A stretch of DNA of 64,000 nt from Halalkalicoccus sp. CGA53. GTDB lineage: Archaea > Halobacteriota > Halobacteria > Halobacteriales > Halalkalicoccaceae. The notes under the pieces are model-generated. The model saw nothing but the letters and a program-made list of their open reading frames with translations. It searched no databases and was not told where the DNA came from. Both the position numbers and the translations under genes were made by a program. Positions 42,263-61,753 of the stretch are shown here, one piece after another (within the stretch, counting starts at the first letter, position 1; each line of letters begins with the position of its first letter). Location: contig NZ_CP144125.1 in NCBI RefSeq assembly GCF_036429475.1, positions 2,170,001-2,234,000 of the forward strand. Reading direction: 5' to 3'.

Positions 42263-44041
42263 ATGGATCTGCCACTCCGGCGACGGGAGTTCCTCGTCAC
42301 CGGAACGGCTCTCGCCGCGTGGACTGCGGGCTGCATGCAGACCGAGGAGGGCGACGAGGAGCGGACGCCGTCGGGGAGCGACGACGACGGCCCGAGCGGG
42401 CTATCGACCGAAGCCGAGACGGGGGACGAAGCGCCCACCGAGACCGAAGAACCAGCCGAGACGGAGACGGAGGAACCGACCGAGACTGAGGAACCGACCG
42501 AGGTCGAAGAATCGACTGAAACGGAGACCGAAGAGCCGACCGAGACTGAGACCGAAGACCTCCCTGAAACGGAGACCGAGACCGAAGAACCGACCGAGAC
42601 GGAGACGGAGGAGCCGACCGAGACGGAGACTGACGACGAGGGGACGGGTGAGGAGAACGGGGAGACCGACGACGAACACGGGGAGGCCGACGACGAGGAT
42701 GCCGACGACGAACCCGAGGAAACCGACGATGAAGAGGAGCCGGAGGGGCCGAGCGCCTCGATCGACGCCTCGCTGGCCTCCGAGGCGGTGCCCAACGGGT
42801 ACGTCTTCGAGGCCGACGTCGACGAGGGCGACGAACCGATCGGTTCCACCCGGTGGGAGTTCGGCGACGGCAGCGACGGGGAGGGGGAGTCGGTCGCACA
42901 CGCCTACGACGACCCGGGCGAGTACACCGTCTCGCTGACCGTCGAGGACGACGTCGGCGAGACCGACCGCGTGGAGGAGACGATCACGGTCGAGGAACGC
43001 CCCGACGGCCGGCCGATCACGGGACGCTTCTTCCCCGAACTCGTTGGGGTGGACGAAGCCCTCCTGGAGCTCGTCGAATCCCACGACGTCGGCGGGGCGA
43101 CCGTCGCGGTGAACCACGAGGGCGAGTTCGTCCATTCCCGGGGATACGGCTGGCACGACCGCGAGCGGGGCGGGGCGGTCGCGCCGGACGCGCTCGTACG
43201 TATCGCGAGCGTCACCAAGCCGATGACCGCCGCGGCGGTACGACGCCTCGACGCCGAGGGTGCCATCGATCTCGACGAGCCGGCGCTCGATCTGATCGAC
43301 GTCGAACCGCAGGAGGGCGAGGAGCCGGACGACCGGCTCTCGGAGATCACGGTCGGACACCTGCTCGATCACCGGGCCGGGTGGGACCGCGACGCGACGT
43401 TCGACCCGCTCTTCCAGCCGATCGAGATCGCGAACGAACTCGGACTGGATCGGCCGCCGGAGCCGCGGGAGATCGCCCGCTTCGTCCTCGGCCGTCCCCT
43501 CCAGTTCGACCCCGGCTCTCGACGCGTCTACTCGAACTTCGGCTACCTGCTGCTCGGCCTGCTGATCGAGGACGTGACGGGGCGGTCGTACGACGAGTAC
43601 GTGAGAGCGGAGGTGCTCGACCCCGTCGGCTCCGAGGAGGTGGTCCCGGCGCGCAACCTCCCCGAGGACCGACCCGACCGCGAGGTCGCCTACGACGACG
43701 GCCGGACCTGCTACAACGCGGTCGACCTCGACCGGGGGGACGACGTCGCCTGTGCGGACGGCGGGATCGACGTCGAGTCGATGGACGCCGCGGCGGGGTT
43801 GGTCGCCTCCGCACCGGCGGTCGCCCGGTTCATGGCGGCGTACGAGCTCGACGGCACACAGCGGTCGGGAGCCCCCTCGCAGCGACGGACGACCCACGGC
43901 TGGTTCACCGACGGGACGAGCGCGGTCGCCCGACAGGGTTCGGATGGGATCGACGTCGTCGTCCTCTGTAACTCGCGCGTGCCGACCGAGGATCTCGACG
44001 ACGCCATCGAGACGGCGATCGACCGAGTGGAGTGGCCCTAG
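42263..44041 (+). CDS. Tat lipoprotein with PKD domain and class C beta-lactamase-like serine hydrolase
   Basis: A 592-residue exported protein. RRREFLVTG is a Tat motif and AGC a lipobox at about residue 24. Residues about 50-165 are a Glu/Thr tandem-repeat linker, about 168-252 a PKD domain (YVFEADVDEGDEPIGSTRWE, then AYDDPGEYTVSL), and 265-592 a serine beta-lactamase-like domain. Its catalytic motifs are Ser316-Val-Thr-Lys319, Tyr423-Ser-Asn and His545-Gly. Archaea lack peptidoglycan, so the substrate is probably a peptide or ester outside the cell. It overlaps pheT by four bases, tail to tail. Confidence 0.87.
   Translation: MDLPLRRREFLVTGTALAAWTAGCMQTEEGDEERTPSGSDDDGPSGLSTEAETGDEAPTETEEPAETETEEPTETEEPTEVEESTETETEEPTETETEDLPETETETEEPTETETEEPTETETDDEGTGEENGETDDEHGEADDEDADDEPEETDDEEEPEGPSASIDASLASEAVPNGYVFEADVDEGDEPIGSTRWEFGDGSDGEGESVAHAYDDPGEYTVSLTVEDDVGETDRVEETITVEERPDGRPITGRFFPELVGVDEALLELVESHDVGGATVAVNHEGEFVHSRGYGWHDRERGGAVAPDALVRIASVTKPMTAAAVRRLDAEGAIDLDEPALDLIDVEPQEGEEPDDRLSEITVGHLLDHRAGWDRDATFDPLFQPIEIANELGLDRPPEPREIARFVLGRPLQFDPGSRRVYSNFGYLLLGLLIEDVTGRSYDEYVRAEVLDPVGSEEVVPARNLPEDRPDREVAYDDGRTCYNAVDLDRGDDVACADGGIDVESMDAAAGLVASAPAVARFMAAYELDGTQRSGAPSQRRTTHGWFTDGTSAVARQGSDGIDVVVLCNSRVPTEDLDDAIETAIDRVEWP
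42439..42633 (+). repeat. Degenerate tandem repeats coding Glu/Thr-Pro units
   Basis: The block is built from repeats of about 15-24 nt around GAGACGGAGACGGAGGAACC, GACCGAG and close variants, encoding ETETEEPT units. It forms the surface linker of the PKD/hydrolase lipoprotein and is a likely site of length change by slippage. Confidence 0.7.
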
Positions 44042-45792
44042 GTCAGTGAGTCGAGGTCGAACTCGAACGCCGCGACCGGGAGTTCGAGGTCGCACGCGAC
44101 GAGCACCCGGGGATGGAGCTCACCGAGGACCCCCACCCGCTCGTCGTCGATCACGACCGCGGCGGATCGGCCCTCGACGAACGACGGGTGTTCGATAGCA
44201 GGTGTCTCTAGCTCCGCACCGAACGCCCGGCAGAGCCCCTGGAGTCGTGCCCGCGCGTCCTCGTAGGAGGCGTCCGTCCGGGCGAGGACGCCCGCGACGT
44301 GACGTCGCTCCGCGAGGCCCGTCTCCGTCCCCTCCTCGCGCTCCATCACGAGCCCGATCTCCGAGAGCTCCTGCGGGTAGCGCCGGTGGGTGTTGTTCGA
44401 GAGCACCGTCAGCAGCGACGGCAGCGCCCACGTCCGGACGATCTCGTACTCCTCGCTGTACGGCTCGCGGATCCGCGCCGGCTCGCCCCCGCCGAGGACC
44501 TCCGTACCCGGCTCGACGCTCATCCGGGAGAACGTCGCCTCTTCGCTCGTGAGGTGGAAGTTCAGCAGGTCCTCGAAGCCCATCCCCACGAGCGTCTCCC
44601 GCGCCGCGTCCTCCAGTCGGCTCCGCTCGTGACGCCCGCCGACCGTTCCGACGTCGGGATAGCGGGGTACGAGGTCGCCGAAGCCGTAGGCGCGACCCAC
44701 GTCGTCGACGAGGTCGATCGGGTGGAGTACGTCGACCCGGTAGGCCGGGACCTTGACCTCGTAGTCGGTGAACGCCTCGCTACTCAGCTCCGAGACCCGC
44801 GCGTCGAGGCCAGCACGCTCGAAGCAGTCGATCGCCTCCTCGATCTCCAACCCTGTCCCGAGCACGCGCTCGATCCGGTCGTGGGCGACGAGCTTCGACT
44901 CGGTCTCGAGGTCGGGACGCAGCAGCTCTCGATCCGGGTAGCGCACCGTGACCTCCTCGATCGTCGCGCCGCGCGAGGCGAGCGCGTAGCAGACGATCGC
45001 GAGCATCCTGTCGATCGTCCACTGGTCGGTGCCGGTCATCTCGACCAGCAGTTCCCGCGTGTCGGTCGTCACCTCGGTGCGTCGACCGTTGATCACCGGC
45101 GGGAACGAGAACAGCCCGATCTCGTCGTAGATCGCCGGCATCCTCCCGTAGTCCTCGACGATCGTGGCGTACTCGCGGCCGGTCGGATGCTCCGTAAGCA
45201 CCTCGCCGGGGGTTAGCTCGGCGTCCGAGTCGAGGGGGACGAACCGCTCGCCGTCGGGCTCGACGCCCGTGTAGCGGATCGTCGGCCGGTTCTCGGCCGT
45301 CCCGGGGCCGCTTTCGTCCGACCCGTCGGAGGCCGTCCGGGCCGCACGACCTTTCAGCATCGCCAGATCGTGGACCCCGATCGCGCCCTTCGCCCGGCCG
45401 CGGCCCATCGTCGCGTGCAGCTTCTCCTGGAGTTGGATCAGCGAGTCGAGCGTCCGCTCGTCGAGCGAGAGTCCCCTGACGATCGCCCCGGTGACGTACG
45501 GCCGTTCCTCGGGCACCGACTCCTCGACCTCGATCACCCAGTCCGCGCTGTTCGTCCTGGGGACCGAGATCCCCCGGTCGAGCCCGTAGTGATACCGGAG
45601 CGAACGGGCGACCCCCTCGACCGAGAGCCGGTCGAGTCGATCGGGCGCGAACTCGAACTGGAGCTCTCCCTCCTCAGTTTCGCCCTCGTACTCGAGCCCC
45701 AGACCGAAGAGGTCGGCTTTCAGCTCCTCATCGTCTTTCTCAGTGCCGGCGAGCGAGCGAAGCTCGTCCGTGTCGATGTCGACGACGGGCAT
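44038..45792 (-). CDS. pheT: Phenylalanyl-tRNA synthetase beta subunit
   Basis: A 584-residue archaeal-type PheT (B1, B3/B4, B5 and catalytic-like domains, without the bacterial N-terminal tRNA-binding or C-terminal FDX domains). Typical stretches are MPVVDIDTDELRSLAG, the B3/B4 editing segment with EIGLFSFPPVINGRRTEV, and the C-terminal FEDLLNFHLTSEEATFSRM. It joins PheS in an alpha2-beta2 enzyme charging tRNA-Phe. The ATG at 45792 overlaps the pheS stop by one base (TGATG); the extra N-terminal residues of a longer frame are not protein-like. Confidence 0.93.
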   Translation of the reverse strand: MPVVDIDTDELRSLAGTEKDDEELKADLFGLGLEYEGETEEGELQFEFAPDRLDRLSVEGVARSLRYHYGLDRGISVPRTNSADWVIEVEESVPEERPYVTGAIVRGLSLDERTLDSLIQLQEKLHATMGRGRAKGAIGVHDLAMLKGRAARTASDGSDESGPGTAENRPTIRYTGVEPDGERFVPLDSDAELTPGEVLTEHPTGREYATIVEDYGRMPAIYDEIGLFSFPPVINGRRTEVTTDTRELLVEMTGTDQWTIDRMLAIVCYALASRGATIEEVTVRYPDRELLRPDLETESKLVAHDRIERVLGTGLEIEEAIDCFERAGLDARVSELSSEAFTDYEVKVPAYRVDVLHPIDLVDDVGRAYGFGDLVPRYPDVGTVGGRHERSRLEDAARETLVGMGFEDLLNFHLTSEEATFSRMSVEPGTEVLGGGEPARIREPYSEEYEIVRTWALPSLLTVLSNNTHRRYPQELSEIGLVMEREEGTETGLAERRHVAGVLARTDASYEDARARLQGLCRAFGAELETPAIEHPSFVEGRSAAVVIDDERVGVLGELHPRVLVACDLELPVAAFEFDLDSLT

Positions 45793-47309
45793 CAGTAGAT
45801 CGCCTCCGCGTTCCGGAGGAAGTCGATGTCGACGAGCGTGCCGTGGAGGTCGCGGATGTCCTCCGCGCCGGTGACGAGCATCGCGAGGCGTTCGAGCGCG
45901 AGCCCCCACGCCATCACGTCACACTCCACCCCGAGCGGTTCGAGGACCTCGGGACGGAACATACCCGAGTTGCCGATCTCGATCAGTTCGCCGGTCTCGG
46001 GGTGGTGTCCGAAGAGTTCGAAACTCGGCTCCGTGTACGGGTTGTAGTGGGGTTTGAACTGGATGTCGGTGATGCCGAAGCTCGCGTAGAACTCGGTGAA
46101 CGTCCCCATCAGGTCCCGTACCGAGAGCTCCTCGGCCATCACCCAGCCCTCGATCTGGAAGAACTCGAGGAGGTGTGTCGGGTCGAGCGTGTCGTTTCTG
46201 TAGACCTTCTCGACCGAGAAGTACCGCTGTGGGGGTTCGAGCGTTCCGACCGCGTGTCCGGAGAGGTAGCGCATCGAGAGCGAGGTGGTGTGGCCGCGCA
46301 GTGCGATCTCTCTCGCCATCTCCTCGGACCAGGGCGAGTGATACCCCTCTCCGTCCGGTCCGACACCGTCCCTGTGTGCGGACTCGACTCGCGAGAGGAG
46401 GTCCTCGGGGAGGTCGTCGATCCGCTCGGGCGCCTCGAGCGAGAACCGGTCCCAGTGCGTACGTGCGGGGTGGTCCTGGGGCATGAACAGACAGTCGTTG
46501 ATCCAGAAGTCGGCGTCCGCGTGCGGCCCGTCCATCTCCCGGAAGCCCATCCCGATCAGGACGTCCTTCACCCTGTCCGCCGTCTGGCGGAGGACGTGTT
46601 TCCGGCCGGCCGGAGCGGTCGCGGCCTCCGCCTCGACGTTGTACGGCGCGAACTCGACCGTCTCCCAGTCACCGGAGGCCGCAGTCTCGCCGGTCAGTAA
46701 GTCGGAGGAGATCTCACCGACGGTATCTCGTTCCTCGAGGCCTTCCATCAGTGCGGTGACGCCCTCGTCGGTGAGCTTCACGGATCGGACGGTCCGTTCG
46801 GTCCGTTCGATCAGGTCGCGCCGGTCGAGCGCGTCGAGGGTCGCCTCGTCGTCGACTGAGCCGCCCGAAGAGATCGCCGAGAGCGCGGTCGCCTCCTCGT
46901 CCTCGCCGGCGTCGGGCGTCGCGGAAAGCTCACCGGAGTCGATCCCGCCCAGTCCTTTGCGTGCGAAGTTCGAGAGCGCGATGTCGACCTCCCCGCCCTC
47001 TAGACCGGAGCGGCCGATGATCTCGCCCATCGAAACGGAAGAGTCGTCGGCCCCGAGGTCGAGTGCCGTCTCGTAGAGCCGTCGTTCGGGCAGACCGCTC
47101 TCGGCGTAGCTCTCGCCCTCCTCCGTGAGCGTGAGCGTCTCCTCGGTCTCCTCTGCGACCGAGAGCAGCCCCGCCTCCTCGAGGGCGAACGCCGCTCCCG
47201 TGATCGTCTCCGGTTTCTCCCCCGTCTCGTCGGCGATTCGATCAATCTCCCGGTACTCCTCGGCGCTCGCCGCCCGGAGGACGGCGACCTGTGTCGCTGG
47301 TAGTCTCAT
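45792..47309 (-). CDS. pheS: Phenylalanyl-tRNA synthetase alpha subunit
   Basis: A 505-residue archaeal-type PheS. The N-terminal 230 residues are winged-helix DNA/tRNA-binding-like domains (LPATQVAVLRAASAEEYREI, RSVKLTDEGVTALMEG). The class II catalytic core follows: motif 1 near GFREMDGPHADADFWINDCL, motif 2 RYFSVEKVYRNDTLDPTHLLEFFQIEG, and motif 3 in MAWGLALERLAML. It is translated just ahead of pheT. A weak CGCTAAGCG element lies about 30 nt upstream, and a Phe-rich short ORF with a better TATA box precedes it by about 90 bp. Confidence 0.94.
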   Translation of the reverse strand: MRLPATQVAVLRAASAEEYREIDRIADETGEKPETITGAAFALEEAGLLSVAEETEETLTLTEEGESYAESGLPERRLYETALDLGADDSSVSMGEIIGRSGLEGGEVDIALSNFARKGLGGIDSGELSATPDAGEDEEATALSAISSGGSVDDEATLDALDRRDLIERTERTVRSVKLTDEGVTALMEGLEERDTVGEISSDLLTGETAASGDWETVEFAPYNVEAEAATAPAGRKHVLRQTADRVKDVLIGMGFREMDGPHADADFWINDCLFMPQDHPARTHWDRFSLEAPERIDDLPEDLLSRVESAHRDGVGPDGEGYHSPWSEEMAREIALRGHTTSLSMRYLSGHAVGTLEPPQRYFSVEKVYRNDTLDPTHLLEFFQIEGWVMAEELSVRDLMGTFTEFYASFGITDIQFKPHYNPYTEPSFELFGHHPETGELIEIGNSGMFRPEVLEPLGVECDVMAWGLALERLAMLVTGAEDIRDLHGTLVDIDFLRNAEAIY

Positions 47310-47400
47310 TGTCGGTGTCGTTTCGGAGCAGTCGCTTAGCGGTTCCGGACTCCGTGGACGGGTTCACGCGAGACGTGCGCTCGCGATCCGTCGCCCGCAG

Positions 47401-47481
47401 CTAGGTGAAAAAGCCGAACCCGTCGACGCTCGCGGCCTGCTCGCGTGCGGTTCGGACACCGGTTTCGGGTTCGGAAACCAT
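47401..47481 (-). CDS. Putative Phe-rich leader peptide upstream of pheST
   Basis: A 26-codon ORF, reading MVSEPETGVRTAREQAASVD and then Gly-Phe-Gly-Phe-Phe-Thr before TAG. A GTTTATC box lies almost exactly 27 nt before its ATG, so it would start a leaderless transcript running into pheS, whose ATG is 91 bp after the ORF. Three of the last six residues are Phe. The TTT-TTC codons create a T5 run (CTTTTTC), the usual archaeal termination signal. The resemblance to attenuation leader peptides of aminoacyl-tRNA synthetase operons is by position and codon content only. Confidence 0.45.
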   Translation of the reverse strand: MVSEPETGVRTAREQAASVDGFGFFT

Positions 47482-47591
47482 ACGGACGGATTCGGGTATC
47501 CGATGATAAACGTTGCCGTGGACGGGCGTCCCTCGGGACGGGCGGCCGCTCGTAGGGATCGTCGTAGAAGCTCATACTCTCTCGATCACGA

Positions 47592-61573: not shown

Positions 61574-61753
61574 TGGGGTCGGAGGGATTTGAACCCCCGA
61601 TCAACTGATATCTCCGGTGCGCGCCTCGGTACTCCAGAGGGTCGTCATCACGGCCGATGATCAGTCGGCCGCTCGGTATATCAGTCTGGAGTGTCGTCAC
61701 CGGGCACGCGGTCCTCTGGAGTCAGTCGCCTTGCCGGACTAGGCCACGACCCC
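61574..61753 (-). tRNA. tRNA-Trp (CCA) with 106-nt intron
   Basis: Minus strand. Acceptor stem GGGGTCG/CGACCCC plus discriminator A; anticodon stem ACTGA/TCAGT; anticodon CCA, so Trp. The intron (61610-61715) lies between positions 37 and 38 at a bulge-helix-bulge, as in other haloarchaea. The spliced tRNA is 74 nt with loop CTCCAGA. Inside the intron are a box-C-like GTGATGA (61645-61651), a GTGACGA, CTGA boxes, and segments complementary to the anticodon arm, consistent with the known box C/D guide role of this intron. Confidence 0.9.
61610..61715 (-). ncRNA. Box C/D-like guide RNA inside the tRNA-Trp intron
   Basis: The intron carries GTGATGA and GTGACGA (C-type) and CTGA (D-type) boxes. 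ACTGATAT is exactly complementary to the exon segment ATATCAGT around position 39, and CTGGAG to the exon CTCCAG around position 34. In Haloferax volcanii the equivalent intron guides 2'-O-methylation of C34 and U39; the same role is inferred here from the motifs. Confidence 0.65.

Follow-up and report, generated by a model that had tools for sequence, protein, structure and literature searches.

A conserved leader with clustered Phe codons upstream of pheST in haloarchaea and a Trp-codon counterpart upstream of trpS

The pheST locus of Halalkalicoccus sp. CGA53

The window analyzed here is a 64,000-nucleotide stretch of the Halalkalicoccus sp. CGA53 genome (NZ_CP144125.1, positions 2,170,001 to 2,234,000). 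On its minus strand, a short leader ORF is followed by pheS and then by pheT (Table 1). The true start of pheT probably lies nearer 45790 than the end of its open frame at 45909. A sequence-only reading of this region had proposed a Phe-codon leader peptide in front of pheST, and its description of the locus was borne out by ORF reading: the 26-codon ORF ends in Gly-Phe-Gly-Phe-Phe-Thr-stop, and the pheS ATG is found 91 nt past its stop codon. The T5 tract formed by the TTT-TTC codons is present at 47412-47408, and the GTTTATC box on the pheS strand stands at the leaderless distance, with its TTT starting 29 nt before the leader ATG.

This promoter arrangement is shared by other leaders. Among 64 leaders the consensus is AACGtTTTTg, and in 52 of them the distance from the start of the TTT to the ATG is 28-29 nt. 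A separate motif of the CGGAACCGYTAAC type, resembling a BRE plus a weak TATA box, lies 30-50 nt upstream of pheS in the majority of 81 loci, including loci that have no leader. Since this motif, at 47336-47347 in the window, is conserved even without the leader, a second pheS promoter may exist, and some pheS transcription may bypass the leader. For Haloferax volcanii pheS (HVO_2948), Table 2 of a published transcription start site (TSS) map gives no additional TSS, so none at the pheS-proximal motif (PMC4983044).

Two further observations concern other parts of the window. An Rfam tRNA match of 180 nt at 61574-61753 on the minus strand was not called by ARAGORN, and it is therefore probably a tRNA gene interrupted by a long intron, perhaps tRNA-Trp. 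A leader before thrS was looked for by eye in the window and none was seen; a TATA-like box of its own stands shortly before thrS.

Table 1. Leader, pheST genes and RNA elements, in positions of the window
Feature	Position	Strand	Evidence or remarks
Candidate TATA box GTTTATC for leaderless transcription of the leader, preceded by a BRE-like CAAC	47505..47511	-	Position and consensus
Leader ORF, 26 codons, MVSEPETGVRTAREQAASVDGFGFFT and stop	47401..47481	-	ORF reading
Helix A 5' strand, leader nt 8-16 (codons 3-5 plus one base)	47466..47474	-	Pairs with 47414-47422; 97.2% of cells paired, 4 pairs changed on both sides
Helix A 3' strand, leader nt 60-68 (from the third base of codon 20 through Gly and the first Phe to the second base of the next Gly codon)	47414..47422	-	Joint exchanges
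Phe codons 22, 24 and 25 (TTC GGC TTT TTC)	47407..47418	-	Contain T5 at 47408-47412
P1 5' strand, starting 3 nt past leader stop	47391..47397	-	A1 columns 98-104; 7/7 pairs changed on both sides among relatives
Internal loop 5' side, CGGAT (consensus YGGAC)	47386..47390	-	GGA: first G 52/52, second G 49/52, A 51/52
P2 5' strand, CGCGAG	47380..47385	-	A1 columns 110-113: 4 pairs, all changed on both sides, 93.8% paired
P2 3' strand, CTCGCG	47367..47372	-	Pairs with 47380-47385
Internal loop 3' side, TGAAC (consensus CGAAA)	47362..47366	-	GAA in 51/52
P1 3' strand	47355..47361	-	A1 columns 149-155
BRE/TATA-like motif CGGAACCGCTAA near pheS, possible second promoter	47336..47347	-	Conserved in relatives
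pheS, phenylalanine--tRNA ligase alpha subunit	45792..47309	-	Pfam PF01409, E=2.9e-79
pheT, beta subunit (open frame)	44038..45909	-	PF17759, PF03484, PF03483

Conservation, codon choice and RNA structure of the Phe leader

The upstream regions of the best 80 pheS loci from GTDB genomes were examined, and most of them carry an ORF of 24-29 codons of the type MASEPHxxxVxRQPxxxxGFGFFFAR. The sequence-only reading had suggested searching other Halobacteria for a short ORF with clustered Phe codons before pheS. With a fixed rule (15-34 codons, at least three Phe among the last ten), such an ORF was found in 63 of 81 loci, while the same rule gave no Tyr, Phe or Trp clusters in 30 tyrS upstream regions and no Phe cluster in 30 pheA upstream regions. 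At least three Phe residues are present in the tail of 63 of 65 leaders. Neither of the outcomes named as speaking against a leader, unconserved Phe codons or a pheS transcript always starting downstream of 47401, was encountered.

An RNA model, R1, was built from 52 leaders linked to pheS. It has matches in 330 of the 392 genomes examined from the haloarchaeal order, covering 84 of 95 genera. In a phylum sample of 393 genomes, all 63 matches fall inside this order, so that at this sensitivity the element is a haloarchaeal feature. The R1 match in the window spans 47351-47481 with 69.2 bits (E=8.7e-14), the window sequence itself being among the 52 used to build the model. A peptide-only search over the 392 genomes gave strong hits confined to near relatives because the peptide is too short, a problem solved by the RNA model. 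Where a genome gave a further R1 match, it was either weak or an antisense copy of helix A, and a second Phe leader was not found. Searches of Pfam and NCBIfam matched the 26-aa product alone to no known family, as would be expected of a chance ORF or an unrelated small gene before pheS; that explanation is already refuted for practical purposes, since position, tail, frame, structure and promoter are all conserved in 84 genera.

The leader has a lost start or frame at L039, L067, L103 and L042 and is absent in L062, L077, L088 and L109. Such cases are scattered among the haloarchaea, Halomicrobium katesii and Halarchaeum being examples, which indicates that the element can be lost. Of the 80 loci, those that match the model and yet break the start or the frame are few; L039, L067 and L103 are among them.

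The pattern of change suggests that the leader is translated, but not for its product, as in a leader peptide. In the middle of the ORF, differences among related leaders number 202, 185 and 194 at codon positions 1, 2 and 3, and with such equal change the amino acids there appear free to vary. The start, the Phe cluster and the stop are kept in one frame among the leaders, the ORFs having been picked for this.

Codon choice in the tail is skewed toward T. Outside the first Phe codon, TTT makes up 52 of 169 leader Phe codons, whereas in pheS at these loci the figure is 55 of 1197, a 9-fold difference (p=2e-22), and the Val codon in the tail is GTT in 7 of 8 cases. Between the leader stop and pheS, none of 64 loci has a T-run longer than three, which makes the Phe codons the sole T-rich stretch before pheS. 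The sequence-only reading had taken the T5 as the archaeal termination signal. Its T-richness stands up in the enrichment of TTT and GTT and in the lack of another T-run, but a run of at least four is absent from 24 of the 64 leaders, and the nearest relative, L032, reads TTCTTC. T-richness of the Phe codons thus seems favored, not required. TTT, but not GTT, might also be preferred because a GAA anticodon reads it more slowly.

Alignment A1 of the leaders contains three helices, helix A, P1 and P2, supported by compensatory changes. Pooled over the three helices, 91.8% of cells are paired, compared with 23-53% in slid controls, and 148 cells are changed on both sides, compared with 51.6 +/- 7.3 in shuffles and 25-40 in slid versions. 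The same helices are recovered by RNAalifold unaided. Independent comparisons on the pheS protein tree over ten column pairs gave 27.0 changes in the same way and 0.5 in the other way, and eight shifted-column controls gave 4.7 and 7.1; these values are sums over columns and not a formal test.

Helix A joins the start of the ORF to its Phe cluster. Its joint exchanges are CCC/GGG, TCC/GGA and CGC/GCG, in which Pro CCC is partnered with Gly GGG, Ser TCC with GGA (or GGG by wobble) and Arg CGC with Ala GCG. The first Phe codon is taken in by this covariation-supported helix, so that a proposed sensing codon is itself part of the structure. Pairing in helix A accounts for the fixation of the first Phe codon as TTC and for the odd conservation of GAA at codon 4, where 58 of 61 Glu codons are GAA versus 24% in pheS.

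P1 begins within a few nucleotides of the leader stop across the leaders and encloses an internal loop, with P2 closing the tip. In the window P1 is weak, with two of its seven pairs mismatched. The GGA/GAA loop could presumably form three sheared G-A pairs, as judged from RNA loop thermodynamics. A kinked-turn was considered for this loop and dropped, as the loop looks symmetric and has no 3-nt bulge.

The near-invariant GGA/GAA loop and the strong covariation of P1-P2 go beyond what an attenuator hairpin needs, and they raise the question of a structured 5'UTR that acts without ribosomal Phe sensing. A protein, perhaps PheRS itself, would bind P1-P2 through the YGGAC/CGAAA loop and repress translation or stability, the ORF being a remnant. 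The GAA of the loop is also the Phe anticodon, and autocontrol by PheRS would account for the restriction to pheS. This explanation leaves aside the in-frame Phe codons, the preference for TTT and the Trp-codon leader of trpS described below, which does not have this loop, and we consider it improbable.

Folding of single sequences revealed no excess stability (z 0.4), and the minimum-energy fold of the window differs from the consensus structure. In that predicted fold, GACGGGUUC (47424-47416) pairs perfectly with GAACCCGUC (47365-47357) over 9 bp. This pairing of the Gly-Phe codons with the 3' part of the hairpin competes with helix A and P1 in the window species. In its general form, GGNUUCG/CGAAACC, this pairing is possible in nearly all sequences; it is invariant and therefore offers no covariation in favor of a switch.

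A Trp-codon leader before trpS and the published Haloferax transcripts

In many haloarchaea, a second leader type with clustered Trp codons (..CWRW..) was found upstream of trpS. It has its own covarying hairpin around the Trp codons, and also a second predicted helix after which comes a U/C-rich stretch, GCTCACTCGCTTTCTC. Its structure differs from that of the Phe leader and contains no YGGAC/CGAAA loop. A Trp-leader model has hits in 81 of the 195 haloarchaeal genomes, representing 31 of 66 genera, and the leaders precede two types of TrpRS paralogue. Strong matches lie beside trpS wherever checked; some weaker ones lie away from it, and six of these were examined without a clear result. In the window's genome, no Trp leader was found at E<=0.001. 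Both the RNA structure of the Phe leader and the Trp counterpart are additions to what the sequence-only reading had claimed.

Trp-codon leader ORFs (..WRW..) are located at L152:1166-1308, L161:1051-1193, L180:422-555 and L057:517-655, among others. In L210 and L211, and by model position in L208, the Trp leader and trpS lie directly ahead of the Phe leader and pheS.

The strongest argument for codon sensing is that the codon cluster fits the synthetase in both the Phe and the Trp systems. The same comparison bears on an arrest-peptide leader, in which the nascent GFGFFF would stall the ribosome from within the exit tunnel and perhaps sense free Phe instead of a lack of Phe-tRNA. GFGFFFA at the C-terminus is the most conserved part of the peptide, and Gly is kept between the Phe residues, as such a leader would have it. 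The conservation of the Gly codons is, however, accounted for by helix A, in which they covary with codon 5. Moreover, V, C, S or L replace Phe at single positions in some leaders, and the Trp leader peptide differs (CWRW), as expected if codons count. An arrest peptide is therefore very unlikely.

Transcripts carrying such ORFs have been mapped by others. The H. volcanii dRNA-seq map lists 16 uORFs in mapped 5'UTRs of 150-250 nt, among them number 13, with 26 aa and 2772 Da, ahead of pheS HVO_2948, and number 12, with 23 aa and 2743 Da, ahead of the tryptophan--tRNA ligase gene HVO_A0127 (PMC4983044, Table 2). No additional TSS is given for HVO_A0127 in the available part of that map either. 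Our leaders from relatives are of similar size: the Phe leader of L015, MASEPERGARASEPTTDGFGFFFLTA, has 26 aa and 2793 Da, and the Trp leader of Haloferax mediterranei, MVSTSHANCWRWHAFREVDSIAV, has 23 aa and 2703 Da. Trp leaders of 23 aa are present in L180-L182 (Haloferax and Natronorubrum). With position, size and downstream gene in agreement and with relatives that fit, the two H. volcanii uORFs are very probably the same two elements, and the published map, in its available part, shows a transcript from the leader TSS in that species. In the accessible text of the study, the uORFs are presented only as possible small proteins, and codon clusters, conservation, RNA structure and regulation are not described (PMC4983044). 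As far as that text goes, the codon clusters, conservation, RNA structure and Trp counterpart are new here, while the 26- and 23-codon uORFs before pheS and trpS were already listed.

Proposed mode of action and relation to known systems

We read the element as a cis-acting pheST leader that measures charged Phe-tRNA through a ribosome, with a probability of roughly 0.7. A Phe-codon leader peptide before pheST, put forward as a possibility by the sequence-only reading, is strongly supported by conservation, codon choice, covarying RNA structure, the Trp-codon counterpart of trpS and the published Haloferax TSS map. As judged from sequence, a ribosome-dependent leader that senses Phe-tRNA and controls pheST appears well supported, its mode of action does not. 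Conservation, codon choice, helices, position and the absence of another T-run are properties of the sequences themselves; leader translation, a Phe response and a termination step are what we infer.

In the scheme that we propose, the leaderless mRNA would begin at the leader ATG and be translated at once. When Phe-tRNA is ample, the ribosome would pass the Phe codons to the stop, cover the 5' strand of P1 and leave, so that the U-rich Phe tract is exposed and termination of the FttA/aCPSF1 type could end transcription before it reaches pheS. Under a shortage of Phe-tRNA, the ribosome would wait on the Phe codons, melt helix A and hide the U-rich tract, with P1-P2 free to fold; the polymerase would then escape into pheS, and more PheRS would be made. 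A ribosome covers about 15 nt ahead of its A site. The 5' strand of P1 ends, at the median, 10 nt past the first base of the stop, 19 nt past the last Phe codon and 31 nt past the first, so that a ribosome at the stop would cover P1 while one on the early Phe codons would leave it free.

Several published data bear on the termination step. FttA prefers U-rich RNA 30-36 nt behind the polymerase end, according to the available text of PMC11616081, and aCPSF1 binds U-tracts in the corresponding part of PMC8716108. Intergenic termination sites in Haloferax consist of a T stretch plus TC (PMC7237163), and the leader's TTTTTC resembles these 3' ends. Transcription-translation coupling and polymerase-ribosome links are indicated in Haloferax (PMC8576121). 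Termination at the U-tract is plausible, with TTT enriched 9-fold and no other T-run before pheS, although the T5 is not universal. A polymerase with the Phe tract 30-36 nt behind it would stand in P2, before P1 is complete, and a ribosome resting on the tract would exclude FttA. The idea of the sequence-only reading that a stalled ribosome masks the tract would in this form be workable in time. With FttA/aCPSF1, whose U-rich target lies about 30 nt behind the polymerase, such masking makes physical sense. With intrinsic termination at the tract it makes less, since the polymerase would already be past the tract by the time a ribosome could stall on it.

No bacterial-type intrinsic terminator was found between leader and gene in the 64 loci. 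This lack of a hairpin with a T-run, together with the position of P1-P2 right after the stop, would suit regulation through pheS translation or mRNA decay, for example by a leader ribosome changing nuclease access, in place of transcription termination. The pheS start, however, lies outside P1-P2, at distances that vary and can reach about 200 nt beyond it, and T-richness of the Phe codons is selected; we consider this alternative unlikely.

The proposed Phe-tRNA-sensing leader resembles the bacterial leader peptides (E. coli pheL, pheM of pheST and trpL; Rfam Phe_leader and Trp_leader) in having an upstream short ORF, presumably on the same transcript, with clustered codons of the amino acid served by the controlled gene, a helix involving the sensing codons and a structure starting at the leader stop. 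It differs in being archaeal, on a leaderless mRNA, with no GC hairpin and T-run after the leader and with the Phe codons themselves as the sole U-rich tract. When the window and eight loci were compared with all 4227 Rfam families, the only hits were tRNAs and one snoRNA below threshold. The T-box leaders that precede aminoacyl-tRNA synthetase genes in bacteria are similar in that a synthetase gene would be controlled by the charge of its tRNA and in a conserved GG(U)GGA-like loop near an antiterminator-like stem. Unlike them, the haloarchaeal leader has a probably translated ORF rich in Phe codons, neither a stem I or specifier loop nor an antiterminator bulge complementary to the tRNA 3' end was found in it, it has no Rfam match, and its loop reads YGGA, with C in 26 of 52. 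FttA/aCPSF1 termination shares the U-rich RNA about 30 nt behind the polymerase and the proposed competition with a coupled ribosome, but a regulated, amino-acid-dependent case is not described in the available parts of those studies (PMC11616081, PMC8716108). The uORFs of long H. volcanii 5'UTRs, as far as they are listed, agree with the Phe and Trp leaders in position, size and downstream gene (PMC4983044).

The leader would thus work like bacterial attenuation leaders while standing outside their families, having no Rfam match and no bacterial terminator, and apparently it has an independent origin. We know of no established case of archaeal amino-acid sensing by a translated leader peptide, and none was found in the open-access papers searched. 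A broader proposal is more tentative, and we place it slightly below even odds: haloarchaea would have their own, independently arisen ribosome-mediated attenuation for pheST (Phe leader) and trpS (Trp leader), in which the sensing Phe codons double as the U-rich signal of the archaeal termination factor and the waiting ribosome itself would prevent termination, with no terminator hairpin of the bacterial kind involved. If the proposal is true, the archaeal sensing codons would be the termination signal at the same time, and no bacterial-type hairpin would be needed. The leaders would also explain the long, uORF-bearing 5'UTRs of two Haloferax synthetase genes in a group where leaderless mRNAs are the rule.
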